DNA from: Flavobacteriales bacterium
Lineage (GTDB): Bacteria > Bacteroidota > Bacteroidia > Flavobacteriales_E > Vicingaceae
Reading direction: 5' to 3'
Length of the DNA: 61,783 nt
Assembly: GCA_002706365.1 (NCBI GenBank)
Contig: PALM01000047.1
Location: 1 to 61,783, forward strand
How positions within the stretch are numbered: position 1 is the stretch's first letter; every line of letters begins with the position of its first letter. The position numbers and the translations under genes are program-made. The notes beneath the pieces were generated by a model, which saw only the letters and a list, made by a program, of their open reading frames with translations, was not told the origin of the DNA and did not search any database. Positions 11,807 to 61,735 of the stretch are shown here, in pieces.

Positions 11807-13792
11807 CTACTGCTCAACCGGTGCTTCTCCGGAATCTGCAGGAACGTAATCCTCGCTCAATACAATGAAGTCGGTACGACGGTTAAGCTGGTGTGCAGCT
11901 TCTCTTTCTTCTTCTGTAGACAATTTATTGATCTCCTCATCTGTGATCAAGAGGTTGGTTTCACCATATCCTCTAGGAACCATTCTATCACTGGCAATTC
12001 CAAGTGAAGTAAGGTATTTTACTACAGATTCTGCACGACCTTGAGATAACTTCAAGTTATACAGATCACTACCTCTGGAGTCTGTATTTGCACGAAGCTC
12101 AATGGTAATATTTGGGTTATCCACTAAGATGTCATACAGGTAATCAAGAGAATCCTTCGCTTGATCGGTCAAAGTTGTCTTATTGAATTCATAAAGAATC
12201 TCAGGAAGCTTGATACCTTTATCAGAGATCGGGATCAACTCGTAAAGGTGAGAAAAGATCTTTGACTCTTCCATATCAACGGTAGTCTCTTTTCCTTTTG
12301 CTTGAAGATAACCTGGCTTACTTACAGTGATTGCGTATGAAGTATTTGGGTTGATATAAGAGGTACCTCCATTATCGGCAAATTCAGTTCTACCATCACC
12401 ACCAGTCTCTTTTTCAGCAGATGTTCCATCTGTACCAAGCAGTTCTACTGATGCAGCAGGCAATACCTCACCGGTTTCAGAATCTCTAACTTCAACTTTC
12501 AGTACGAATAATACTGGAGGAGTGTAGAATTCCCAAATATCATCCTTACCTCTTCCTCCTTCTCTTGAAGAAGTCAAGTATCCTCTATCGTGCTCGCCAT
12601 CAAATACAATGGCAAAATCATTCGAGCTTGAATTGATAGGCGCTTTTAGGTTAGCTACATTACCCCACTGTCCTTCTCCTTTCTTTTGGGCTGAGAAAAT
12701 ATCCAGACCACCCATACCCATATGTCCGTCTGAAGCGAAATAAAGATCTCCGTTATCTCTTACGAAAGGGAACATCTCATTTCCAGGAGTATTAATTTCA
12801 GGACCGAGGTTTATAGGAGCAGACCATTGTCCGCGACCTTCTTCTTTGATGTACCATAGATCCTTACCACCTTGTCCGCCATCTAGATCAGAAGCGAAAA
12901 TGATGATCTTATCGTCTGGTGTAATTGCAGGATGACCGATTACAGCACTATCGTTTGCAATTGGAATAACTTCGGCCTGACCGAACTTTCTTCCCATTTT
13001 CTTAGCAGAGATGATCTGACAACCAACGAAGCCATTCTTCTCTACACGACAACGAGTGAAGTACATGGTGTTTCTTCTACTGTTCATTACAGCAGCACCT
13101 TCACTATCTTCTGTATTTACCTCTTCGCCTTCAACTAGTACAGGCTCACTCCATTTACCCTTCTTATCTCTTATTGTATAATATAGATCTGAGAAATTAT
13201 CACCAGTCACATCAGAAGTTGCATTACCAACAGAACCTTCTCTTGTAGAAGTGAAGATCATTTCCATGTTCTTCTTATCTGCGAAAGTTGGACCGTAGTC
13301 GTAATACTCTGAATTGATCAGAACCACAGGCTCAACAATATAGTTCTCAGGATTGTCGGCCCATTCTTGAGCCTTCTTTGCTGCTTCTATACCTTGCTTA
13401 CCTCTTGGGTCTCCCGGTTTTTCCGAAGCGTACTTTTGAAACTCCACCAGAGCTTCATCGTACTTCCCATTTTGCATTTTCATCTCCGCTAAACGAAGGT
13501 GAGCAATTGGATCAGCGTATTGAGCAATGATTGACTTATCATACCACACTTGTGCTTGTTGAGTTTGGTCACTCAATCTGTAAGCTTCAGCGATCTTAAA
13601 AATGATCTCTGCCTTCTTATCACGAGCTTTCTCCTTTACATATGCCTTCTTGTATAGCTCAATTGCCTCAAAGTATTTTTCCTCATCGTATAGCTTCACA
13701 TCAGCATCATCTAGATAGCTTTTTTGAGCAACAAGCTGCAGGGAAAAACACAGAGTTAAAAAAGCGAATCCAAGAACTCTGGATATATTCAT
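11807..13792 (-). CDS. PorE-like OmpA family protein (TPR, PD40, carboxypeptidase-regulatory, OmpA domains)
   Basis: A 661-residue exported protein with a signal peptide (about 1-22, ending LVAQ). TPR repeats (about 24-150) are followed by a PD40/WD40-like propeller (about 150-430, with repeated IFASDLDGGQGGKDLWYI and LYFASDGHMGMGGLDIF blades). A carboxypeptidase-regulatory domain spans about 440-520. The C-terminal OmpA peptidoglycan-binding domain (about 540-650) contains ANTDSRGSDLYNLKLSQGRA. This is the architecture of PorE, a T9SS component linking the secretion machine to peptidoglycan, but Bacteroidota have many paralogues, and a second one lies at 59036-61027. Assignment to T9SS is therefore inference. 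A perfect TACTTTTG box and a hairpin lie upstream. Confidence 0.88.
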   Translation of the reverse strand: MNISRVLGFAFLTLCFSLQLVAQKSYLDDADVKLYDEEKYFEAIELYKKAYVKEKARDKKAEIIFKIAEAYRLSDQTQQAQVWYDKSIIAQYADPIAHLRLAEMKMQNGKYDEALVEFQKYASEKPGDPRGKQGIEAAKKAQEWADNPENYIVEPVVLINSEYYDYGPTFADKKNMEMIFTSTREGSVGNATSDVTGDNFSDLYYTIRDKKGKWSEPVLVEGEEVNTEDSEGAAVMNSRRNTMYFTRCRVEKNGFVGCQIISAKKMGRKFGQAEVIPIANDSAVIGHPAITPDDKIIIFASDLDGGQGGKDLWYIKEEGRGQWSAPINLGPEINTPGNEMFPFVRDNGDLYFASDGHMGMGGLDIFSAQKKGEGQWGNVANLKAPINSSSNDFAIVFDGEHDRGYLTSSREGGRGKDDIWEFYTPPVLFVLKVEVRDSETGEVLPAASVELLGTDGTSAEKETGGDGRTEFADNGGTSYINPNTSYAITVSKPGYLQAKGKETTVDMEESKIFSHLYELIPISDKGIKLPEILYEFNKTTLTDQAKDSLDYLYDILVDNPNITIELRANTDSRGSDLYNLKLSQGRAESVVKYLTSLGIASDRMVPRGYGETNLLITDEEINKLSTEEEREAAHQLNRRTDFIVLSEDYVPADSGEAPVEQ

Positions 13793-20705: not shown

Positions 20706-20844
20706 TTGAATTGCCGCTAATTCAGTTGAACCAAAAAGACTTAATTTTACGAGTATACAGCGCATCTATCAAAATTAGCATGCTTCATATAGGCAACTAA
20801 ATACCGCTAAGTGCGTCAAAGAATTGAATTAATACTACACTAAA

Positions 20845-23409
20845 TTGAAGTCATTCCCACGCATTATCCAACTATTGATCAGCCTTTTGGCCGTTATTTT
20901 TAGTGTTCAAAATAGTCATGCACAATTGTATTATAGCAGTGCAGACTCCGTCTTGGTTAAAGAGAATGGCGACTATTTCGATTTCCCTTTTCAAGGAGGA
21001 TTCAATGCCCCGCAATTCAATGCGATCGATTTGAATTACGACAACATCATGGATCTAGTGATCTATGAAAGAAGCGGAGGAAAGGTTTACACCTATCTTA
21101 ATGGGGGTACTGCAAATCAAGTAGACTATACTTATGCACCTCAATATGAAGGTGCATTCCCCGAAGTATCAGATTGGATGTTTGCCCGCGATTATAATTG
21201 CGATGGCCAAATGGATCTAATAACAGGAGTAAGAGGCTCATCTGTAAGAGTTTATGAGAATGTGGGCAGTCTAGCGAATGGTCTTTCTTTTACATATGTT
21301 GGCGTCATTCAATCACTTTACCCGAATGGTAGTGTGCCTTTGCCGATCAATCCTGGTGGGGCTAACCTTCCCGGTATTGTGGATATGAATAATGATGGCG
21401 ATATGGATCTCATCTTCTTCGATAGCAATGGATCCCAAATGCAATTACATAAGAATCTAAGTGTAGAAAGAACTGGTATTTGCGGATTGGATTTTGAAGT
21501 TCGCAGTGAATGCTGGGGCGACTTTACAGAAGCGGGCTTCAATTCTACAGTCTATTTAGATTCTTGCAGGTTTGGCGATAGAGTTCCCAATCCAGAATCT
21601 GATAAAGGTGGAAGTGTAAGAAATCTAGATATTCAAAAAACCACCTCTGGCTCGAGGATCTCTAAGCATGCAGGCTCATCAGTATCACCAATAGACCTAG
21701 GTACTATTGGAGGGATGGATCTGGTAATTGGTGATATAGGCGGCAATAATTTGACTGCACTATATAATGATGATAGTATTGCTCCTTTTATCAATTCGCA
21801 TATAACTTCATTGGATTCTACTTTTCCAGTGTATAACACCCCTGTTGATCTACCCGTTTTCCCGGCAGCTTTCTTTTTGGATGTGAACAACGACCAAAAG
21901 GAGGATATGATCGTAACTACCAATAGCAATGGATATTTGGCGAGGAGTTATTACAATAATAATGTACTCTATTATGAGAATGTAGGTAGCAGTCAGCATG
22001 TATTCAATTACCGTCAGAACAATTTCCTTCAAGGAGAGGTGATCGATCTAGGAAGAGGAGCTTATCCTGCATTTTTCGACTACAACAATGATGGCCTTAT
22101 GGATATGCTTGTGGGAAATGATGGCTATTTAGACACTGCATCCAATGAGATGATCGGACAATTAGCATTGTTCCAAAATATTGGAACGCCAACTATGCCT
22201 GAATTCGATTTGATCGATCGCGATTTTGGAGGTTTATCGAATATTCCTCTTGACCTAAGCACCAATGCGCCTCAACGGTATTTGATCCCGGCTCTAGGTG
22301 ATCTTGATGGCGATGGCGATATGGATTTATTGATTGGCGACGATGATGGAAGAGTTCATTACTTCATTGATAGCTCATCTACTGGAAATAGTGCAGCATT
22401 TGAATTAAGTGAAGCCTCTTTTCAAGGTTTGAATGTCTTCGATCAAGCGGCTCCAGCACTTATTGATATTAATCAGGATAATTTATTGGATCTGGTGATA
22501 GGAAACGCCTTGGGCATATTGGAGTACCATCAGAATTTAGGAAATAGCAGCACTCCAATCTTCAATCTTGAAGTACAATCCATTATATGGCAATACGATA
22601 GCATAATCCGCTATCAGTTGAGGGATGATCCAAACCTTTCAGTCTTCAGTCCGGGTGATACCTTAGATATTAATGAGGCACTATTCGGCGACAATAATGT
22701 ATTCCAGATCGTAGCAGCGGTAAATGATGCTCAAAATTATCTTGACCTCATTCATCCATTTAGAAGAAATGCACTAGATGATGAAGCAACTTCAACTGCG
22801 GTAATTGACTATTCAGAGAAGAATTGGGGAGGAGTGCGTTTGCCAAATTATTTCAATGGAGACAGAAATGCCGCACCATTCCTATATCGTAACAATCAGA
22901 ATGAACTGAATATGATCATTGGATCACAGAAAGGATATCTCTATTTCTTCAATCAGATCGACAGCAATCTAACTGGCAACTTCAATTTGTACGACTCCAC
23001 CTACACAGGAAGGAATTACGGAGCAAGTGCAGCAGTATATGGAGCAGACCTGAATCAAGATACCAATATCGATCTTGCTGTGGGAAATGAAGCAGGTGGA
23101 TTACAATTGCTATTTGGATCTACAAGCACTTCCTTAGTTGATCTTGGAAAAAGTGGGACTGATAAAGAACTTCCAATTAAACTCTTTCCCAACCCTACTA
23201 AAGGATTGGTGAATTTGTTAATTGAAGAAGAAATAAGAGGCACTTATGATCTTAGGATATATGATCTAAGTGGAAAGAAAGTGTGGGAAGAAAGAGGATT
23301 GAATCAGCGGTCTTATCAGTTTATTCCAAACTTAAAACCTGCTTTGTATATGGTAGAAGTAGCCGGTGATGAAATGAGATCCACCACCAAGCTACTTATT
23401 AAACCTTAG
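20845..23409 (+). CDS. Secreted FG-GAP/VCBS repeat protein with T9SS type A sorting domain
   Basis: An 854-residue secreted protein. It starts with TTG at 20845, the only start giving the signal peptide (basic KSFPR, then a hydrophobic core ending NSHAQ near 26). The body is a series of FG-GAP/VCBS-type beta-propeller blades with calcium-loop motifs such as DMNNDGDMDLIFFDSN and DLDGDGDMDLLIGDDDG. The last 75 or so residues form a type A T9SS sorting domain (LFPNPTKGLVNLLI, RIYDLSGKKVWEE, ending in a short basic strand). Such domains are removed on export and the product is anchored or released at the cell surface. The ligand is unknown. It is divergent from secDF across a 208-base gap. Confidence 0.9.
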   Translation: MKSFPRIIQLLISLLAVIFSVQNSHAQLYYSSADSVLVKENGDYFDFPFQGGFNAPQFNAIDLNYDNIMDLVIYERSGGKVYTYLNGGTANQVDYTYAPQYEGAFPEVSDWMFARDYNCDGQMDLITGVRGSSVRVYENVGSLANGLSFTYVGVIQSLYPNGSVPLPINPGGANLPGIVDMNNDGDMDLIFFDSNGSQMQLHKNLSVERTGICGLDFEVRSECWGDFTEAGFNSTVYLDSCRFGDRVPNPESDKGGSVRNLDIQKTTSGSRISKHAGSSVSPIDLGTIGGMDLVIGDIGGNNLTALYNDDSIAPFINSHITSLDSTFPVYNTPVDLPVFPAAFFLDVNNDQKEDMIVTTNSNGYLARSYYNNNVLYYENVGSSQHVFNYRQNNFLQGEVIDLGRGAYPAFFDYNNDGLMDMLVGNDGYLDTASNEMIGQLALFQNIGTPTMPEFDLIDRDFGGLSNIPLDLSTNAPQRYLIPALGDLDGDGDMDLLIGDDDGRVHYFIDSSSTGNSAAFELSEASFQGLNVFDQAAPALIDINQDNLLDLVIGNALGILEYHQNLGNSSTPIFNLEVQSIIWQYDSIIRYQLRDDPNLSVFSPGDTLDINEALFGDNNVFQIVAAVNDAQNYLDLIHPFRRNALDDEATSTAVIDYSEKNWGGVRLPNYFNGDRNAAPFLYRNNQNELNMIIGSQKGYLYFFNQIDSNLTGNFNLYDSTYTGRNYGASAAVYGADLNQDTNIDLAVGNEAGGLQLLFGSTSTSLVDLGKSGTDKELPIKLFPNPTKGLVNLLIEEEIRGTYDLRIYDLSGKKVWEERGLNQRSYQFIPNLKPALYMVEVAGDEMRSTTKLLIKP

Positions 23410-24560: not shown

Positions 24561-24650
24561 ATAAACAGCTAGCAGCATGACTGAAAAGATATTTCTTTAG
24601 GCAAGAGGCAACCTTTCTCTAAATTAGCGTCAATAAATGGAAAAGTATTA

Positions 24651-25229
24651 ATGGATTTATCTGATCGGGATACGGTTAAAGAGGTAGTAGAGGCATGTGC
24701 GCGAGGCGACCGAGAGTATCAGAAGCAGCTGTACAAAGCCATGTACAGTTCTATGATGGCGGTTTGTTATCGTTACGCTTCTAGGAGAGAAGATGCCAAG
24801 GATCTCTTTCAGGAAGGATTCATTAAGGTTTTCGACAAGATCGGAAAGTACAATTTCAAAGGTTCTTTGCAAGGTTGGATAAGACGAATAATGGTAAATC
24901 ACGCGATCGACCATTACCGCAGAAACAAAAACAAGTTCTCAATGAGCGAAAGCTTAATGGAAGCCGAGAGGATTCCAGAGAAGGATTTGGATGAATCTGT
25001 ATTCGAAGACATCACTGCAGATGAGCTTTTAAGCCTTGTGCAAGAATTGAGTCCGGTATACAGATCAGTGTTCAACATGTATGTACTCGATGATTACACA
25101 CATGCTGAAATTGCGGAAGAGCTGGGAATCAGCGAAGGGACGTCGAAATCCAACTTATCAAAAGCCAAAAGAAATTTAAAGACCATGGTCTTGCAAAAGA
25201 TAAAGAATGAAAAACAGACAGCTAAATAG
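24651..25229 (+). CDS. ECF-type RNA polymerase sigma-70 factor
   Basis: A 192-residue group IV sigma factor. Region 2 is at about 25-92 (YRYASRREDAKDLFQEGFIKVF, then LQGWIRRIMVNHAIDHYRR for -10 recognition). Region 4 is at about 130-182 (LSPVYRSVFNMYVLDDYTHA, then IAEELGISEGTSKSNLSKAK as the helix-turn-helix). Regions 1.1 and 3 are missing, as expected for ECF factors. Its last 23 bases overlap the next gene, whose product has the look of a membrane-bound anti-sigma factor. The regulon cannot be read from the window. Confidence 0.94.
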   Translation: MDLSDRDTVKEVVEACARGDREYQKQLYKAMYSSMMAVCYRYASRREDAKDLFQEGFIKVFDKIGKYNFKGSLQGWIRRIMVNHAIDHYRRNKNKFSMSESLMEAERIPEKDLDESVFEDITADELLSLVQELSPVYRSVFNMYVLDDYTHAEIAEELGISEGTSKSNLSKAKRNLKTMVLQKIKNEKQTAK

Positions 25230-26559
25230 AGAAGAAGAAGTCCTTCGCGACAAGCTGAGCGAGCTCAATTATGAGTTTCAGCCTGCCGATTGGGATGCAC
25301 TGGAGAAGCAATTGCCCTCTTCCGGTAGTGGATCTAGCTGGTTAAGCGGAAAAGCCATTGTTGGAGCAGCTGTTGTTGTTTCCTTAACCGCCGCCTGGTT
25401 CATAAGTCAGCCCGCTGCGGATAATGAAACTGCTGTGCAGAAAGAGAAGAAAGCGGTGCAGACTGAGCAGAAGGATGCTGTATCTCCAAAGACTGAAGAT
25501 CAAACACAATCTTCTACAACTACTCAGCTTACTGAGAATTCAGAAAGAGCTTCTGAAGAAGAGGTATTATCGACTGATGAGACAGTAGTTGCCGAAAATG
25601 TGACTTCGAATGCCAATGAGGAGTCATCTCCTTTAGAAAGTTCTTCAAATGAAGAGAGATCTCAAATCATGGATGAAGCTGCAGATGAGAACATCCAGTT
25701 CAGCGAAGAGAATTCAGATGAAGCGGAAATAGCAGCTGAACAGAAAAGAACTGAAAGTGAAGAGCCAAATATCAATGGTATCATCGCACCCGATAAAGTG
25801 TGTGCGAATCAAGACTTTAGAGTTGAGCTTGACATGAAAGCTGACTTACCTGAAGGCTATACCGTGGATTGGTTAATTGACAATAAGCGATTTATCGTTG
25901 GAAGCAAGATCACCGGAATGGAGATTAGCGAAAACGGAATGAAGACGATAAGTGCTGAGGTAAAGGGCCCAAATGGAGAGCTATACCAGTCATATAGCAG
26001 CTCGATCACAACAGTTGACATTCCAGAGCTTGATTTTACTTATGAGGACTTGAAAGATCCGTATCTCGACTTCAGTGCAAAAGTTGAAGTGACCGACGAT
26101 CTATTCGATAGCTACGAGTGGTTGGGTGAAGATGGAAAAATTCTCGCAAAAGGAGCCAACCCAAGCATCGATTTTAGAAATAAAGGCGTCTATGATTTGA
26201 AGATTAGAGCAAAAACTGCCGAAGGTTGCTATCAAGAGATATCTAAACCATTGGCCATTGCTGAAGACTTTGATCCTATGGCACCGAATGCTTTCACTCC
26301 TTTAAATCAGGATGAAAGAAATCAAACTTTCATGCCAGCGGCATTTAAGCTAAGAGATGATCGATATAAAATGCAAATCATGAGCCTAGATGGCAACTTG
26401 ATTTATGAAAGTAATAGTATAAAAGATGAGTGGAATGGTAGAATGCACAATAGCGGTCAAATGCTACCTGCTGGGCAATACCTTTGGAAAGTCATCATAA
26501 GCAATAATGAAGGCAGACAGAGAACCTTCATCGGAAATATTAGAATCCTACCGGATTAG
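25207..26559 (+). CDS. Putative membrane anti-sigma partner with PKD-like and T9SS type-B-like (CHU_C) domains
   Basis: A 450-residue protein. The short N-terminal domain (1-47, with the FQPADWDALEKQL motif seen at the start of Bacteroidota proteins encoded next to ECF sigma factors) would be cytoplasmic. One transmembrane helix follows (about 48-66), then a Glu/Ser/Thr-rich linker (67-188), a PKD/Ig-like region (190-352), and a domain resembling the gliding-motility-associated C-terminal (CHU_C) domain (359-450: APNAFTPLNQDERNQTF, then EWNGRMHNSGQMLPAGQYLW). Its ATG sits 23 bases inside the sigma gene, so the two are translationally coupled. An anti-sigma role is inference from position and topology; no ZAS zinc motif is seen. 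Confidence 0.7.
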   Translation: MKNRQLNREEEVLRDKLSELNYEFQPADWDALEKQLPSSGSGSSWLSGKAIVGAAVVVSLTAAWFISQPAADNETAVQKEKKAVQTEQKDAVSPKTEDQTQSSTTTQLTENSERASEEEVLSTDETVVAENVTSNANEESSPLESSSNEERSQIMDEAADENIQFSEENSDEAEIAAEQKRTESEEPNINGIIAPDKVCANQDFRVELDMKADLPEGYTVDWLIDNKRFIVGSKITGMEISENGMKTISAEVKGPNGELYQSYSSSITTVDIPELDFTYEDLKDPYLDFSAKVEVTDDLFDSYEWLGEDGKILAKGANPSIDFRNKGVYDLKIRAKTAEGCYQEISKPLAIAEDFDPMAPNAFTPLNQDERNQTFMPAAFKLRDDRYKMQIMSLDGNLIYESNSIKDEWNGRMHNSGQMLPAGQYLWKVIISNNEGRQRTFIGNIRILPD

Positions 26560-53988: not shown

Positions 53989-54271
53989 TGCAATAGAATT
54001 CAAAGAGCAAATTGAAAACGATCCCAAAGCGGTAATTATCGATGTAAGAGCTCCGGAGGAAGAAGCTGAGGGCTTGATTCCAAATTCTCTCAACATCAAC
54101 TTAATGGACCCAAGTTTTGCTCAAAAAGTATCTCAATTAGATCCTGAAAAGCATTATTACGTATACTGCAGGGCTGGCGGTAGAAGCTCCTCTGCATGTG
54201 GATTCATGGAAAGCAATGGATATACAACATTTAACTTAGCAGGTGGAATTCAAGCCTGGAATCAACTTTAA
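53975..54271 (+). CDS. Rhodanese-like domain protein (cytoplasmic)
   Basis: A 98-residue single-domain rhodanese. VIIDVRAPEEEAEGLIPNSL is the CH2A-type motif and the active-site cysteine sits in the loop VYCRAGGRSSSA. Such proteins carry persulfide sulfur or thiosulfate. No signal peptide is seen, so it is cytoplasmic. It overlaps the DUF983 gene by 14 bases and is 11 bases before a second, lipid-anchored rhodanese, so the three are one operon. Confidence 0.93.
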   Translation: MKNLNAIEFKEQIENDPKAVIIDVRAPEEEAEGLIPNSLNINLMDPSFAQKVSQLDPEKHYYVYCRAGGRSSSACGFMESNGYTTFNLAGGIQAWNQL

Positions 54272-54282
54272 AAAATTAAATC

Positions 54283-54708
54283 ATGAAGACGATAGTAAGC
54301 AAACTACTACTCCTTAAAACAGTCACTTTCTCTATGTTCTTTCTCACTGCCTGCAATCTTGAAAGTCAAGAACAAAGTGCCGATCAGGAGCAAAGCGTTT
54401 ACCAAAAGGTGAGCCCATCAGCTTTTAAAGCACAGATGAATGAAGAAAAAAGTGAATATCTCTTAGTGGATGTTAGGACTGCCGGCGAATATGAGGCTGG
54501 AGCCATCTCAAACAGTGAAAATCACGATCTTCTAAATGGAGATTTCGAGAAGGCTATGGCAAATTGGGATCCTAAGACACCAATTTACGTCTATTGTGCT
54601 AAAGGAGGAAGAAGTTCACAAGCTGCAGAAATGCTTCAGCAGCAAGGCTTTAAAAAGATCATAGAGTTGAAAGGTGGTTACTCTTCTTGGAGTATGCGAA
54701 CAAATTAG
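54283..54708 (+). CDS. Rhodanese-like lipoprotein
   Basis: A 141-residue rhodanese with a signal peptide ending in the lipobox FFLTAC (Cys near 24), followed by a Gln/Ser-rich linker and the sulfurtransferase domain (about 45-138). LVDVRTAGEYEAGAI precedes the active-site loop VYCAKGGRSSQAAEM, with Cys retained. It should be anchored on the periplasmic side. Paired with the cytoplasmic rhodanese upstream, it would put the same chemistry on both sides of the inner membrane; this is inference. Confidence 0.92.
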   Translation: MKTIVSKLLLLKTVTFSMFFLTACNLESQEQSADQEQSVYQKVSPSAFKAQMNEEKSEYLLVDVRTAGEYEAGAISNSENHDLLNGDFEKAMANWDPKTPIYVYCAKGGRSSQAAEMLQQQGFKKIIELKGGYSSWSMRTN

Positions 54709-54798
54709 CGAACTTCGTGTTTGACTAATTGTCACTCAGCCAACCATTCCGAACCTTTTTCTTTACGTAAATTTAACAGCTGTTTTAAAACAAAGCTA

Positions 54799-57700
54799 AT
54801 GAGAAACTTATTACAATTTTTTGCTACACTGCTACTAATCAGTGTTTTACAGATTAGTATTGCTCAAAATACTACCTTAAAGCTTCGTTCTGGAGATGTG
54901 ATTCTTACAGAAGCCAATTCCCAGACAAAGCTTGCCGACTTCATCAGTCAAAATCCATCAAATGGTAGTTATTACTTGATTCAATTCGATCAAATTCCTA
55001 CTCAGGCTGAACAAAGCAGCATGAATGCGAATGGAGTAAGACTCCTTGAATATATTCCAGAATATGCATTTCTCGCAAATTTGAGCCAGTACAATGGCAA
55101 TAACACATTTGCAGATCTGGGTATTCGTCAGATTGAAAAATTGAAGGAAGAATATAAAACCTCTTCAATGTTTGACCTAAGCGGAGCTCCGGATTATGTA
55201 TATGCAAATGAGACTGAGGTAAAATTGCTTATTGACCGTCAGTTGGATGTTAGTCCGGCAAACTTCATTGCTCTTTTAGAAAGCAATAATGTAGTAATTG
55301 AAGATTACGGTAGTAGCGATGAGAACTTGAATATCAGAATCGCTCAAGAAAGAGTAGATTGGTTGATCAACCTTCCTCAAGTGAAGTTTGTAGACTACGC
55401 TCCTGCTCCACCAGAGCCAGAAGATACAAGAGGTAGAAGTTTACACAGATTAAATATGTTGGATTCCGATGATCCAATGGGTAGAAAATTGAATGGCGAC
55501 AGCGTTTCAATTGCTATTGCAGATAATGGATTAGGACCACACATTGATAGAAAAGGTCGTGTAACCATGCACACCACTGTGAATAACGGCACACATGGTG
55601 ATATGACAACTGGTATTGCGGTAGGTGCAGGAAACTTGGACCCTAATAATGCAGGTATGGCTACTCATGCATACTTACACTATTATAATATTAGCGGTTA
55701 CCCTCAGATCACCCAAGCTGTTAATAATCTAAACCTCAATGGAGTTGTAATTACTTCGACTTCATTCTCTCAAGGGTGTAACTCATATACTTCAGATACT
55801 AGAGCAATTGATCTGCAAGTAAATGCTAATCCAGAATTGCTTCACGTATTTTCAGCTGGTAATAGTGCCACTTCGAATTGCGGCTATGGAGCAGGAACAT
55901 TTTGGGGAAATATTACCGGTGGATATAAGCAAGGTAAAGCTGTGATCGCAACAGGTAATCTTGATTATAGAGGTGTATTGACTACTTCATCAAGTAGAGG
56001 TCCAGCTTCAGATGGTCGAATCAAGCCCGACATCTGTTCTAATGGTACAAACCAGATTTCTACTGACCCTAATAACGGTTACAGCCCTGGTGGAGGAACA
56101 TCAGCAGCTGCTCCTGGTATAGCTGGAATCTCTGCTCTACTTTATCAGGGATATAGAAATCTGAATGCTCAAGCCAATCCTCCTTCGGGATTGATTAAAG
56201 CAGCAATGCTTAATACAGCAAGAGATATTGGAAATCCAGGTCCCGACTTCATTTATGGTTGGGGAAGAGTAAATGCTCATAGAGCAATGTTATTGTTGGA
56301 AGAGAACCGTTATTTGAACGGAACGATCTCTCAAAACGGAACAAATACCCACAGCATCACTATCAATCAAAACCTTGAGGAATTAAAGGTGATGATCTAC
56401 TGGACAGATGTGGCTGGATCAACATTTGCTTCTAAAGCATTGGTAAATGATATCGATATTAGAGTAGTTACTCCTAATAACGACACCTTACTTCCATACA
56501 TACTTAATCCCACTCCAAATGCTACATTGTTAAATCTACCTGCAACAAGAGGTGTTGATGATTTGAACAATATGGAGCAAGTAGCAATTGATACTGCTTC
56601 TACAGGTACTTACACAGTAATTGTGAATGGAAAGGCGATTCCAAGTGGCCCTCAATCGTACCATTTATTATGGGAGACACTATCGGATGACATTACAGTA
56701 ACTTATCCAGCTGGAGGAGAATCATTCGCTCCCGGAACTTCAGAAACTATCCGTTGGGATGCAGTTGAAGGAAGCGGAAACTTCACAGTTGAATACAGTA
56801 GCAATAATGGCTCTACTTGGAATTCAATAGCCACTGTAGCTGGTAATCAGCGTTATGTAAACTGGACTGTACCAACTACTCTAGCTAGCAGTGATATGTT
56901 ATTGAGAGTGAGAAGAAATGGAATTACAGGTGTTAGTGCCAATAATTTCACAGTATTGGGAGTGCCTCAGAATGTGAGAGTAAATTTCATTTGTCCTGAT
57001 TCAGTACAAATTGGTTGGAACACCGTAACTGGTGCAACTGAATATGATGTATTCCTATTGGGAGCTACACATATGGATTCAGTTGGTAGCTCAACAACTA
57101 ATAGTCTGACACTATTCAATATTGATGTATCTCAGGAAAATTGGTTTGCTGTAAGAGCAAGAACTGCAACATCAGTAGGAGAAAGATCTCCAGCTCGTCA
57201 AATGCCACAGAACACATTCAACTGTCCTCTAGCATATGATTTCTCAATTACTCAGATCAACAGTCCTTCTGCCAATTACATCCCAGGATGTGGAAGTGGT
57301 AAGCAGGCTGTTAGAGTAACGATCAATAATGCAGGTGATAGTGTATTGACTAATATTCCGGTAAAATTAAGAGCGGGATCAACAGTTTATTTGGATACGA
57401 TTGCAGGTCCGCTTGCACCTTCGGCATTTCAGTTCTTTACTTTCAAAGATTCACTGACTCTTGGAACTGGAACAGTAACTATCAGCGCTGTTGGAGATTT
57501 GGCAACTGATCAAAACATCACCAATGACTCAGTAGCAATGGATATTCAAGTGATTCCTGCTACAACCTTCACTGTTCCTTACAGCAATGATTTCGAGAAC
57601 TTCATCAACTGTTCAACGAATAGTGATTGTGGAGCAACTACATGTAATTTAAATGCTGGTTGGACTAATATTCCAAACAGCATCGATGATTACGATATGA

Positions 57701-58368
57701 GAGTTGACTTTGGAGGTACACCTTCAAGTAATACAGGTCCTTCTTTTGATGCAAATCCTGGAACTTCATTAGGTAAATACATTTACGCAGAAGCTTCTAA
57801 CAATTGTTACGGACTTACATCTGTAGTTCTTTCTCCATGTTTTGATCTAACAGGAACAATCAATCCAGAGTTTGAATTCGCATATCATATGTATGGAGCA
57901 AATATGGGAGTTATCAGAGTTGATGTATTCGCCAATGGCGTTTGGAACGACAATGTGATCTCTCCTCTATTTGGCAATATTGGAAATGTGTGGAATAGAA
58001 CTACCATCAATCTAAGTCCTTACATAGGTCAAACCATTACTGTAAGATTCAGATTCATTACAGGAGCTAGTTTTGCTAGCGATATGGCTATTGATGATGT
58101 GATTGTTAGAGATCAAGGAGTTGGTTTAGGTGAAATCAAGACTGAATCTTATCGTCTATTCCCTAACCCATCTGAAGGACTATTTAGAATTCAATTGACC
58201 GAAGATGAGATCGGAGAGTTGAGAGTTTTCGATCTTCAAGGTCGCAATATCTACCGTACGAATATCAATAGTAACTACGGTAAAATTGATCTGAGTGGAT
58301 TTGATAAGGGTATCTACATTATCGAATTCAAAGACGGAGAAGTGAGAGAGAAGATCATGGTGAATTAA
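54799..58368 (+). CDS. Secreted S8 (subtilisin-like) serine peptidase with T9SS type A sorting domain
   Basis: A protein of about 1189 residues. The start is ATG 54799, giving signal peptide MRNLLQFFATLLLISVLQIS; an upstream TTG (54721) is rejected. After a prodomain (about 24-205) the peptidase S8 domain has catalytic D242 (IAIADNGLG), H266 (NGTHGDMTTGIAVG), oxyanion N355 (FSAGNS) and S435 (GGGTSAAAPG). Beta-sandwich, fibronectin-like and MAM-like domains follow. The C-terminal 75 residues form a T9SS type A signal (LFPNPSEGLFRIQL). It would be a secreted or surface protease. The usual HGTHVAG motif is altered to HGDMTTG but the histidine is kept. Confidence 0.93.
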   Translation: MRNLLQFFATLLLISVLQISIAQNTTLKLRSGDVILTEANSQTKLADFISQNPSNGSYYLIQFDQIPTQAEQSSMNANGVRLLEYIPEYAFLANLSQYNGNNTFADLGIRQIEKLKEEYKTSSMFDLSGAPDYVYANETEVKLLIDRQLDVSPANFIALLESNNVVIEDYGSSDENLNIRIAQERVDWLINLPQVKFVDYAPAPPEPEDTRGRSLHRLNMLDSDDPMGRKLNGDSVSIAIADNGLGPHIDRKGRVTMHTTVNNGTHGDMTTGIAVGAGNLDPNNAGMATHAYLHYYNISGYPQITQAVNNLNLNGVVITSTSFSQGCNSYTSDTRAIDLQVNANPELLHVFSAGNSATSNCGYGAGTFWGNITGGYKQGKAVIATGNLDYRGVLTTSSSRGPASDGRIKPDICSNGTNQISTDPNNGYSPGGGTSAAAPGIAGISALLYQGYRNLNAQANPPSGLIKAAMLNTARDIGNPGPDFIYGWGRVNAHRAMLLLEENRYLNGTISQNGTNTHSITINQNLEELKVMIYWTDVAGSTFASKALVNDIDIRVVTPNNDTLLPYILNPTPNATLLNLPATRGVDDLNNMEQVAIDTASTGTYTVIVNGKAIPSGPQSYHLLWETLSDDITVTYPAGGESFAPGTSETIRWDAVEGSGNFTVEYSSNNGSTWNSIATVAGNQRYVNWTVPTTLASSDMLLRVRRNGITGVSANNFTVLGVPQNVRVNFICPDSVQIGWNTVTGATEYDVFLLGATHMDSVGSSTTNSLTLFNIDVSQENWFAVRARTATSVGERSPARQMPQNTFNCPLAYDFSITQINSPSANYIPGCGSGKQAVRVTINNAGDSVLTNIPVKLRAGSTVYLDTIAGPLAPSAFQFFTFKDSLTLGTGTVTISAVGDLATDQNITNDSVAMDIQVIPATTFTVPYSNDFENFINCSTNSDCGATTCNLNAGWTNIPNSIDDYDMRVDFGGTPSSNTGPSFDANPGTSLGKYIYAEASNNCYGLTSVVLSPCFDLTGTINPEFEFAYHMYGANMGVIRVDVFANGVWNDNVISPLFGNIGNVWNRTTINLSPYIGQTITVRFRFITGASFASDMAIDDVIVRDQGVGLGEIKTESYRLFPNPSEGLFRIQLTEDEIGELRVFDLQGRNIYRTNINSNYGKIDLSGFDKGIYIIEFKDGEVREKIMVN

Positions 58369-58457: not shown

Positions 58458-59081
58458 GTGAAGACCTTAGAATACGATCCAAATAAAGAAGTTCCTGTAA
58501 TGGAAGCCTTCTACACCTTGCAGGGTGAGGGCTTTCAAAGTGGTAGAGCTGCCTATTTCATTCGCCTAGCTGGCTGTGATGTGGGATGCCATTGGTGCGA
58601 TGTAAAAGAAAGCTGGGAAGTGGGTCGAGAGCAATTGAAGAATATAGATCAATTGGTGGAAGAAGCCCTCGCTCAACCGGCAAGATTCGCAGTGATTACC
58701 GGAGGAGAGCCACTGATCTACAATTTGGACTCACTTTGCCATATCCTTATCGCACATGGATTTGAGCTAGCTATAGAAACTTCAGGCGCTTACCCCCTAA
58801 GTGGAGAATGGCATTGGATTTGCCTCTCACCCAAGAAAAGAATGGAGCCCCTGGAAGAAGTCTACCAAAAAGCAAACGAGCTGAAGGTAGTGATCTATAA
58901 TCAAGACGACTTCCGCTGGGCCGAAGAACAAAGAAAAAAAGTTTCTGCAAATTGTCTACTCTACCTTCAACCAGAATGGAGCAAGGCAGATAAAATGCAA
59001 GAGCATATCATCAATTATATCAAAGAAAATCCCGCATGGAGAATAAGCCTTCAAAGCCACAAATATTTAGATATACCCTAG
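58458..59081 (+). CDS. queE: 7-carboxy-7-deazaguanine synthase
   Basis: A 207-residue radical SAM enzyme in the queuosine/7-deazaguanine pathway, which contracts the pterin ring of CPH4 to CDG. The iron-sulfur cysteines follow the Cx3Cx2C pattern (C40, C44 and C47, in GCDVGCHWCDVKESW). MEAFYTLQGEGFQSGR and AVITGGEPLIYNL are family markers, and it ends SLQSHKYLDIP. The start is GTG at 58458; an ATG at 58500 would lose the conserved N-terminal segment. No queC, queD or queF is nearby. Its last 46 bases overlap the next gene in another frame. Confidence 0.94.
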   Translation: MKTLEYDPNKEVPVMEAFYTLQGEGFQSGRAAYFIRLAGCDVGCHWCDVKESWEVGREQLKNIDQLVEEALAQPARFAVITGGEPLIYNLDSLCHILIAHGFELAIETSGAYPLSGEWHWICLSPKKRMEPLEEVYQKANELKVVIYNQDDFRWAEEQRKKVSANCLLYLQPEWSKADKMQEHIINYIKENPAWRISLQSHKYLDIP

Positions 59082-61027
59082 CATTATTCAGCCTTTTATT
59101 GCTCTTCGCTTGTCATGCTCCTTCATCAGCCATTGCACAGGAATATAGCAGCGACGATAAGAAGGCTGTAAAGTATTTCTCCGAAGCCAGAACTGCATAC
59201 AGAGAATTGCGACTTGATGAGGCTAAAGAATTGGCAGAAAAAAGTCTTGAAGAGGATGCCAATTTCGCAGAAGCACAAGCACTTATTGCATTCATTTTAA
59301 TTGACCAAGGTGACTATGATGCCGCTGAAGCCAATTTCAAAAAAGCTGTTGAGCTTGACAAGACCGGCTTAATGCCCAATAATATATTTTTCTTAGCTCA
59401 ATTGATCCTGAATGATGGTCGCTATGAGGAAGCCAAAGGCTATTTCGAAAAGTATTTGGCTGCCGAAAGTAGAAATGAGCGCATGAATGAAGAGAGCCGA
59501 AGACAGCTAGATCAGATCGATTTTGCCATAGAAGCAGTAGCTAATCCGGTTGACTTCAAACCAGAGAATTTAGGCGCAGCCGTGAATAGTGAAATGTCTG
59601 AATACTTCCCCTCATTAACGGTCGACGAGAATACCATCTTGTTCACTAGAAGATTGCCATCCAATAGCGCCCCTGAGGGTTTCAATGAAGATTTCTATAT
59701 GGCGCATAAGGAAAATGAAGAATGGCAAACAGCTTATAATATTGAAAAGCCTATCAATACAGAAATGAATGAGGGTGCCCCCTCCCTATCTGCAGATGGA
59801 TTGCTCTTGATCTTTACAGCTTGTGAGCTTTATAACAACTACGGTGGAAACCGACAAGGCATGGGGAGTTGTGATCTATTTTACTCTCAGAAAAGAGGAA
59901 AGAACTGGGGAATTCCTTACAATCTTGGGCAAACTATTAACAGTAGACATTGGGAGACTCAGCCTTCATTCTCAGCGGATGGTAGAACCCTTTATTTTAT
60001 CAGAGGATTGAGAGATCAAAGCGGTACAATGAATGGAAATATTTATGTTTCACAACTAGATAAAGACCTTCGTTGGAGTAAACCAGTGCCATTGAGCAAA
60101 AAGATCAATACCCCTTATAATGAGGAGTCGGTTTTCATACATCCAGATGGACAAACACTTTATTTCTCTTCTGATGGACATCCAGGTCTGGGTGGATTAG
60201 ACATTTTCATTTCCAGAAAGGATCCTGAAGGAAATTGGGGAGAGCCTGTCAACCTAGGCTACCCTATAAATACCCATAAGAATGAGAATTCACTATTGGT
60301 TTCTTCAGATGGAAAGACCGCATATTTTGCCTCAGACAGAGATGAAGGATACGGGGAATTGGATCTATACAAATTTGAACTGGATGAGAAATTCGCACCA
60401 CAGAAAGTGAGCTATTTTGCAGGTGTGATCTACGATTCAAATACCGACCAACCTTTAGAAGCGAGATTCCAATTGATAGACCTAGCTACGTCTAAATTGG
60501 TTGTTGAATCATACTCAGATGAGATGACCGGAGAATTCTTGGTAACTCTACCTGCGGGCAAGGAATATGCTTTGAATGTTTCTAAAGATGGATACCTCTT
60601 CTATTCAGCGAACTTCGCATTGGAAGAAAGCTCAGCACTAGAACCGAGAAAAGAGAATATTCCTCTTGAGCCTATTGAAATTGGGAAGAAGATCGTCTTG
60701 AAGAATATCTTCTTTGAAACCGATAAATACAAGCTAAAGGATAAATCGAAAGTCGAGCTGAACAAGCTCATCGAATTCCTTACTGACAATCCGGGCTTAA
60801 AGATCAAGGTAATGGGTCATACAGATAATGTAGGATCTGATGCCTATAATAAGACACTCTCGCAGAATAGAGCTAAATCGGTGGTGGAATACCTAAGCAA
60901 TAATGGTATCTCAGCAGATCGCATCCAGTCTGAAGGCTATGGCTCTAAACAACCTATTGCGGATAATGCTACCGCTGAAGGTAGAGCGAAGAATAGAAGA
61001 ACGGAATTTCAGATTACAGGAATGTAG
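59036..61027 (+). CDS. PorE-like OmpA family protein, second copy (TPR, PD40, OmpA)
   Basis: A 663-residue exported protein. The N-terminal signal has a lipobox-like LLLFAC followed by a signal-peptidase-like AIAQE, so the anchor type is uncertain. TPR repeats (about 45-165) are followed by PD40 blades (about 175-440, with TILFTRRLPSN and LYFSSDGHPGLGGLDIF), a carboxypeptidase-regulatory domain (about 445-545) and an OmpA domain (about 550-660, with GHTDNVGSDAYNKTLSQNRA). The layout is the same as the protein at 11807-13792. It starts inside queE (46-base overlap), needed to include the signal peptide. T9SS function is inference. Confidence 0.88.
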   Translation: MENKPSKPQIFRYTLALFSLLLLFACHAPSSAIAQEYSSDDKKAVKYFSEARTAYRELRLDEAKELAEKSLEEDANFAEAQALIAFILIDQGDYDAAEANFKKAVELDKTGLMPNNIFFLAQLILNDGRYEEAKGYFEKYLAAESRNERMNEESRRQLDQIDFAIEAVANPVDFKPENLGAAVNSEMSEYFPSLTVDENTILFTRRLPSNSAPEGFNEDFYMAHKENEEWQTAYNIEKPINTEMNEGAPSLSADGLLLIFTACELYNNYGGNRQGMGSCDLFYSQKRGKNWGIPYNLGQTINSRHWETQPSFSADGRTLYFIRGLRDQSGTMNGNIYVSQLDKDLRWSKPVPLSKKINTPYNEESVFIHPDGQTLYFSSDGHPGLGGLDIFISRKDPEGNWGEPVNLGYPINTHKNENSLLVSSDGKTAYFASDRDEGYGELDLYKFELDEKFAPQKVSYFAGVIYDSNTDQPLEARFQLIDLATSKLVVESYSDEMTGEFLVTLPAGKEYALNVSKDGYLFYSANFALEESSALEPRKENIPLEPIEIGKKIVLKNIFFETDKYKLKDKSKVELNKLIEFLTDNPGLKIKVMGHTDNVGSDAYNKTLSQNRAKSVVEYLSNNGISADRIQSEGYGSKQPIADNATAEGRAKNRRTEFQITGM

Positions 61028-61336: not shown

Positions 61337-61735
61337 TCATCTATCAAGAACGAGCCTTTTACTAGTTATAACCTCATCATCATTGAGAATTCTAATAATG
61401 TATGTTCCTCTAGACTGAGTTGAAAGATCTAAGAGCACTTCAGAGGTATTGGCACTTTGGCTTAATACAAGCACTCCTCTAAGATCAAAAACTTCAATTG
61501 AGCTAATAGTTTGTTCAGCCCTTACATAAAATACACCTGAACTAGGGTTCGGAAAGATGGTTATTAAATTCTCTGCTGATTCTAATGATTGCATTCCTAC
61601 AATAGTGTTAATAGAGTCAATATTCACTCTATAAACTCCATCTTGCATTGTGCCAACAAAAAGGATGCTGTCAATAATTTCCATATGTAACCTTCCCTTT
61701 TCTCGAACCGGGTATAAATGTACTTTATCTTTCAT
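61337..61735 (-). pseudogene. Remnant of a T9SS-exported protein (C-terminal sorting domain)
   Basis: A 132-codon frame whose last 75 residues are a T9SS type A sorting domain (ITIFPNPSSGVFYVRA, then EVFDLRGVLVLSQ). The first 55 residues look like a fragment of a repeat protein (LFVGTMQDGVYRVN). It has no signal peptide, which a T9SS substrate needs, and the codon before its ATG is an in-frame TAA. It is therefore probably a truncated or decayed gene, unless the rest of the gene, in another frame, lies beyond the window and a frameshift joins them. Confidence 0.6.

Follow-up and report, generated by a model that had tools for sequence, protein, structure and literature searches.

A conserved ECF sigma factor operon of Vicingaceae whose predicted anti-sigma factor ends in a T9SS type B-like domain

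Why would a membrane protein with the topology of an anti-sigma factor end in a domain usually found on T9SS cargo? The question is raised by two overlapping genes in a 61,783-nt stretch of DNA from a Flavobacteriales bacterium (contig PALM01000047.1 of assembly GCA_002706365.1; hereafter the window). The source genome comprises 3.02 Mb in 47 contigs, and homologous loci are recorded as Flavobacteriales/Vicingaceae. The first-pass annotation of the window had described an ECF sigma factor gene overlapping that of a membrane protein with a T9SS type B-like end, a description borne out by Pfam and by a gene overlap of 23 nt.

Architecture of the sigma operon

The first gene (24651-25229, + strand) encodes an ECF sigma factor of 192 residues, assigned by Pfam/NCBIfam and alignment. 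It matches Sigma70_r4_2 (E=2.4e-17) and Sigma70_r2 (E=1.6e-15), and its nearest solved relatives are SigW, SigE and SigH. As is characteristic of ECF factors, it has regions 2 and 4 only, is about 190 residues long and is linked to a membrane regulator. The second gene (25207-26559, + strand) starts 23 nt ahead of the sigma stop codon (overlap 25207-25229, + strand) and encodes a single-pass membrane protein of 450 residues, predicted to be an anti-sigma factor with a CHU_C end. A close or overlapping junction between the two genes is conserved among family loci.

The layout proposed for this partner in the first-pass annotation, namely a short cytoplasmic domain, one transmembrane helix, an acidic/Ser linker, a PKD-like region and a CHU_C-like domain, proved correct by both Pfam and an AlphaFold model built with 28 orthologues. 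Residues 1-47 (25207-25347, + strand) form the predicted cytoplasmic sigma-binding domain, delimited by alignment and by homology to the N-terminus of barrel-ended relatives; the model places helices at 8-19 and 26-35, and K16 and W29 are invariant in the family alignment. The transmembrane helix, with its N-terminus inside, spans residues 48-67 by hydropathy (25348-25407, + strand; model helix 54-67). This first hydrophobic stretch, starting at about residue 48, lies behind the conserved cytoplasmic domain, and the protein has no cleavable Sec signal peptide. The acidic/Ser-rich linker that follows (residues 68-184; 25408-25758, + strand) is disordered (pLDDT<50 over 67-183), and among orthologues its length and composition are conserved while its sequence is variable.

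The remainder is modeled as three β-sandwich domains (about 185-272, 273-354 and 359-448), mostly with pLDDT>88 and weaker near 351-380. The first is Ig/PKD-like by model and structure matches (residues 185-272; 25759-26022, + strand). The second is a PKD domain (residues 273-354; 26023-26268, + strand) that VIA-align superposes on PKD1 of 6aem with Z 10.3 and an RMSD of 2.0 Å over 80 residues; the Pfam score of the partner for PKD_4 is 19.3, under the cut-off of 27. The third is a diverged CHU_C domain, T9SS type B-like (residues 359-448; 26281-26550, + strand), recognized by Pfam (PF13585, E=1.3e-8, 35.3 bits against a cut-off of 27, residues 359-441) and by column comparison with cargo. The partner scores 27.5 with TIGR04131, under the cut-off of 35, whereas CHU_C passes its own. 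Invariant positions include C199, C341 and W409-x-G411 of the CHU_C domain, besides the two cytoplasmic ones.

Elsewhere in the window, two proteins of ~660 residues (11807-13792, - strand; 59036-61027, + strand) resemble PorE of the T9SS type B anchoring complex, with TPR, β-propeller-like and OmpA-like parts, all recognized by eye. Type A-like T9SS tails are likewise visible by eye on a subtilase-like protein (54721-58368, + strand) and a short one (61337-61735, - strand).

Conservation of the pair and relatives of its inner half

The pair is real, and its conservation across the family genomes is far from a chance arrangement. A profile search for the orthologous fusion, which the first-pass annotation had suggested looking for, recovered the full-length partner in 43 of 46 family genomes (16 genera). 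Scores ranged from 239 to 480 bits, whereas the next CHU_C proteins reached no more than 172; contig ends or a stop codon interrupt a few of these matches. The same annotation had held that orthologues lacking an adjacent sigma gene would speak against an anti-sigma role. The sigma gene is directly upstream in 28/28 loci with enough upstream sequence, usually overlapping. Identity to the window's proteins within the family is 41-82% for the sigma factor and only 20-32% for the partner.

Beyond the family, a sigma-profile scan of GTDB genomes returned 80 loci across Bacteroidota, in 79 of which a following gene is present, and in 47 of these 79 it has a detectable CHU_C end. Other partners of these sigma factors carry an outer-membrane barrel at the C-terminus (OMP_b-brl_2 in loci L090 and L105) or have a short periplasmic end. 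When CHU_C ends are mapped onto the tree of sigma factors, 6 changes suffice, compared with 25.7 for shuffled labels, and at least two of the 6 are forced by well-supported branches of what is a quick tree with some long branches. In Crocinitomicaceae-type orthologues the domain is strongly diverged, and Pfam detected no CHU_C in either of the two tested (L050, L052). The smallest partner seen, in a MAG labelled Chlorobiota (L064:10569-11222), has 217 residues, a transmembrane helix followed by CHU_C, and is too short for two PKD domains.

The cytoplasmic and transmembrane module is common to the CHU_C-ended and barrel-ended proteins (hhalign probability 97.4%, E 1.2e-11), and the cytoplasmic part alone aligns at 95.3%; 20 column-shuffled control profiles all gave 0.6% or less. 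Since this module is homologous to that of sigma-linked proteins of the Dma layout, and since the overlapping gene order is conserved and the promoter autoregulatory (see below), the partner is very likely an anti-sigma factor, as the first-pass annotation had proposed. Its gene lies directly behind an ECF sigma gene and its product has a single N-in transmembrane helix and a conserved cytoplasmic domain, all typical of membrane anti-sigma factors. We infer that inhibition of the sigma factor would reside in the N-terminal domain.

The closest described layout is that of Dma1 and Dma2 of Bacteroides thetaiotaomicron, whose action through their own sigma factors, Das1 and Das2, has been shown genetically (PMC13088901). 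Like the partner, these membrane proteins adjoin an ECF sigma gene and combine an N-terminal anti-sigma domain, one transmembrane helix and a long disordered tether with a C-terminal domain targeted to the outer membrane. The homology itself was detected between the partner and the barrel-ended relatives found here; Dma is likened by its published layout (PMC13088901). The C-termini differ, a PKD-PKD-CHU_C array of three β-sandwiches in the partner versus an outer-membrane β-barrel in Dma, as do the regulons, predicted T9SS cargo versus OMV/PUL genes.

The source genome also encodes two ECF partners that share this N-terminal module and have, by eye, Dma-resembling barrel-like C-termini (L314:1985-3385 and L317:2001-3434), in which Pfam recognized zero domains. 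In three barrel-ended partners (L099:3630-5315, L063:5283-7124 and L084:4613-6358) the cytoplasmic motif (..P..W..l...L) is seemingly repeated in tandem before the transmembrane helix, which could possibly provide several sigma-binding modules.

Promoter and predicted regulon

ECF promoters classically carry AAC in the -35 and CGT in the -10 element. A predicted promoter of this kind, GGCAACC-N14-CGTC, lies 19 nt ahead of the sigma ATG (24607-24631, + strand) and has counterparts throughout the family: GCAACC-N14/15-CGTC (rarely CGTT), with a variable spacer, is found upstream of the sigma genes, 36-59 nt from the start used. The first scan found it in 27 of 28 cases, and the 28th (G031:C392) had been masked by an early start-codon call, making 28/28. 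The site also recurs, with CGTC or CGTT, in many CHU_C-ended pairs that are more distantly related. This near-invariant promoter before the sigma genes therefore points to autoregulation of the operon. The literature searched did not contain GGCAACC as a Bacteroidota ECF promoter.

In the source genome the strict pattern GGCAACC-N14-17-CGTC occurs four times, each 19-39 nt before an ATG, in front of the sigma gene and of genes for a 1643-residue CHU_C protein, a 641-residue secreted protein and an MbnP-like lipoprotein. The reversed control pattern at N14-17 also occurs four times there, so that the evidence lies in the positions and the count alone provides none; across the 46 genomes the N14/15 motif is about twice as frequent as its reversed control. 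For the wider regulon we used pattern searches of genomes and the sequence stretches around the sites, with most sigma promoters excluded. Distinct non-sigma sites lay outside ORFs in 93 of 95 cases, compared with 4 of 32 reversed-pattern controls (p=1e-21), and 62 of 95 sites, against 0 of 32 controls, fell outside ORFs with an ATG ORF starting 10-60 nt downstream (p=4e-12); the site lists include related genomes, and these p-values overstate independence. The site positions and reversed-pattern controls led us to reject a chance origin of the motif.

By a crude hydropathy rule, 67 of 71 downstream ORFs have a signal-peptide-like start, compared with 13 of 44 window genes. The 49 complete targets include 33 CHU_C-ended proteins, 6 with the type A tail Por_Secre_tail and 2 MbnP proteins. 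It is likely from these predictions that the regulon of the sigma factor consists mostly of T9SS cargo. In several genera giant CHU_C genes directly adjoin the operon, in one case (L304) 27 nt behind the anti-sigma gene. The window itself has a variant promoter, GGCAACT-N15-CGTC, with one mismatch (20792-20817, + strand), upstream of a gene for an FG-GAP repeat protein with a type A T9SS sorting domain (20845-23409, + strand; Pfam FG-GAP_3 and Por_Secre_tail), a predicted regulon member. Counterparts of this promoter precede the orthologues in L038 and L279, and homologues of the FG-GAP gene precede the sigma operon in L037, L038, L079, L089, L092 and L103. Two genomes, G006 (100% complete) and G012 (96%), have motif sites before cargo genes, yet the main sigma/anti-sigma pair was not found in them, which counts against the circuit proposed below and could reflect an assembly gap, recent loss or recognition of the motif by another ECF factor.

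In the source genome the MbnP-like lipoprotein gene of the regulon is followed by one for a predicted lipoprotein (L299:5602-7561, G000:C43), and MbnP-like lipoproteins are also predicted targets in other genomes (L230, L285). Small secreted proteins of ~120-160 residues recur as well (L237, L239, L241, L242 and L218; small ORFs in L301, L302 and L383), behind the motif or between the anti-sigma gene and giant cargo genes.

The source genome has 14 ECF genes, and a second ECF/anti-sigma pair among them (L309:1432-3077; G000:C40, about 54,000-55,600) has a 362-residue partner with a CHU_C end (60.8 bits). Its own promoter is ATGCAACC-N16-CATC, which recurs within the family ahead of this sigma gene and of genes for long secreted proteins. 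The alternative ATGCAACC-N14/15-CATC gave scattered matches and was discarded as having the wrong spacing, N16 being correct. As judged from sequence, this paralogous circuit repeats the CHU_C-ended design with another promoter code.

Known regulators of T9SS genes are partly comparable. SigP of Porphyromonas gingivalis, acting with PorXY and PorA, is likewise an autoregulated ECF factor serving the T9SS, into which a CTD-bearing protein feeds; unlike the present sigma factor, which is predicted to control cargo, SigP has the T9SS machinery under its control and is activated through binding by PorX. PorA, for its part, is a CTD protein of the surface rather than an anti-sigma factor, whereas here the CTD-like domain is fused to a predicted one (PMC7712824). 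The SM6 promoters of Flavobacterium psychrophilum share an ECF-type -10 with CGT and include an ECF/anti-sigma pair and T9SS genes, but control gldN, porU and other genes (PMC9723704). In the literature searched, no link was found between anti-sigma factors and gliding-motility or type B CTDs; only PMC7712824 has both terms, unlinked.

Possible roles of the CHU_C module

Type B cargo such as SprB also carries a CHU_C/TIGR04131-type domain behind PKD-like domains (PMC12618676, PMC9143113); the partner, unlike such cargo, is anchored in the inner membrane without a signal peptide and has lost the RWG signature. We aligned 28 family anti-sigma domains with 31 cargo CHU_C domains: RWG is present in 31/31 cargo and 0/28 anti-sigma domains, and by the pattern used it is missing from 41 of 47 distant anti-sigma orthologues. 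The second class of anti-sigma factors (L309, L322-L325 and L327) also lacks it, except for RFG in L322. The core is kept in the anti-sigma domains, with W-x-G in 28/28, but G379 is mostly Ala; some orthologues retain the NGDG loop. Type B CTDs are recognized by PorP/SprF-like shuttles (PMC12618676, PMC9143113), in F. johnsoniae by cognate ones (PMC12618676). The minimal type B export unit is up to 235 residues, and in F. johnsoniae mutating any of five conserved type B motifs, of which we infer RWG to be one, blocks secretion of the SprB CTD (PMC12618676). Because the RWG kept by all compared cargo is lost, the anti-sigma CHU_C domain is probably a non-exported look-alike of cargo, and the T9SS-dependent cleavage or export that the first-pass annotation had envisaged is disfavored.

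We give a probability of roughly 50% to the reading that the operon is an autoregulated sigma/anti-sigma pair for T9SS surface cargo, mainly giant type B proteins, in which the CHU_C module docks as a look-alike. The 47-residue cytoplasmic domain would bind and retain the ECF sigma factor. On its flexible tether, the periplasmic PKD-PKD-CHU_C module, its cargo-type end altered and probably non-exported, would dock on a type B-branch receptor (the SprA translocon or a PorP/SprF-like shuttle), and sigma release would depend on whether it is occupied or free. With free export capacity, the sigma factor would be released to transcribe its own operon and cargo; once cargo fills the pathway, the anti-sigma factor would be displaced and the sigma factor held again. 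The direction of this switch is a guess. The earlier suggestion that the domain reports T9SS capacity or surface state may thus still hold, and it is now joined by a predicted regulon that is mostly T9SS cargo sharing CHU_C. Because regulon and sensor share this domain, the module may sense the type B export branch, which we rate a little below an even chance. None of the genes next to the operon was identified as PorP/SprF, and SprA is present in 18/18 genomes tested (the source genome and 17 others), making its co-occurrence with the pair uninformative.

The foremost rival, in our view unlikely though of some weight, takes CHU_C as a β-sandwich recruited as a sensor of envelope stress, of a ligand or of a protease; T9SS recognition would play no part, and the cargo regulon would be a coincidence. 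Loss of RWG could indeed mean that the domain contacts no part of the T9SS, the domain is strongly diverged in Crocinitomicaceae, and the outer end is evidently swappable, given sister anti-sigma factors with barrels or short ends. Such a coincidence sits poorly with CHU_C being the commonest feature of the predicted regulon (33/49) and with the separately placed L309-type sigma lineage, which repeats the pairing with secreted giant proteins.

Less probable again is a trans-envelope arrangement, in which the T9SS would export the C-terminal module through the outer membrane, with the protein spanning both membranes and its exposed end sensing the surface. Its architecture would parallel the tether and outer-membrane end of Dma, the 117-residue disordered tether and three domains are sufficiently long, the periplasmic module (about 265 residues) is close in length to the minimal type B export unit, and the NGDG loop persists in some orthologues. 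It is countered by the absence of RWG from all family and most distant orthologues and its presence in all compared cargo, if, as we suppose, RWG is among the motifs each needed for SprB CTD secretion. Finally, that the partner is ordinary T9SS cargo adjoining a sigma gene by chance is very improbable despite its Pfam CHU_C match and is rejected in practice by the conserved operon and N-terminal homology, given also the lack of a cleavable signal peptide (transmembrane helix from about residue 48), the conservation of the cytoplasmic domain and its invariant W29, a neighboring sigma gene wherever upstream sequence is available, and the loss of RWG.

Returning to the look-alike reading, a similar coupling logic is known from FlgM and sigma-28 of flagella, where an anti-sigma factor is coupled to the secretion system that exports products of its regulon; FlgM itself is exported, unlike the partner, which is membrane-anchored and probably non-exported. 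More speculatively, a non-exportable mimic of the type B signal might gauge free export capacity and keep giant surface proteins in homeostasis, two or more such circuits running in parallel in each cell under different promoter codes.

The pair is thus real, widespread and undescribed in the literature searched, and joins a Dma-like inner half to a T9SS type B-like end. It suggests a modular Dma design in which one anti-sigma, transmembrane and tether half is combined with exchangeable outer ends: a β-barrel, a CHU_C module or a short periplasmic end. The proposed brake bears the domain that also ends most of the cargo predicted for its sigma factor. How do Bacteroidota keep the synthesis of very large T9SS cargo in step with export capacity? 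To that question the locus contributes a specific regulator, an explicit promoter sequence, a regulon predicted across dozens of genomes and a sensor domain that is akin to the sorting signal of the cargo itself.
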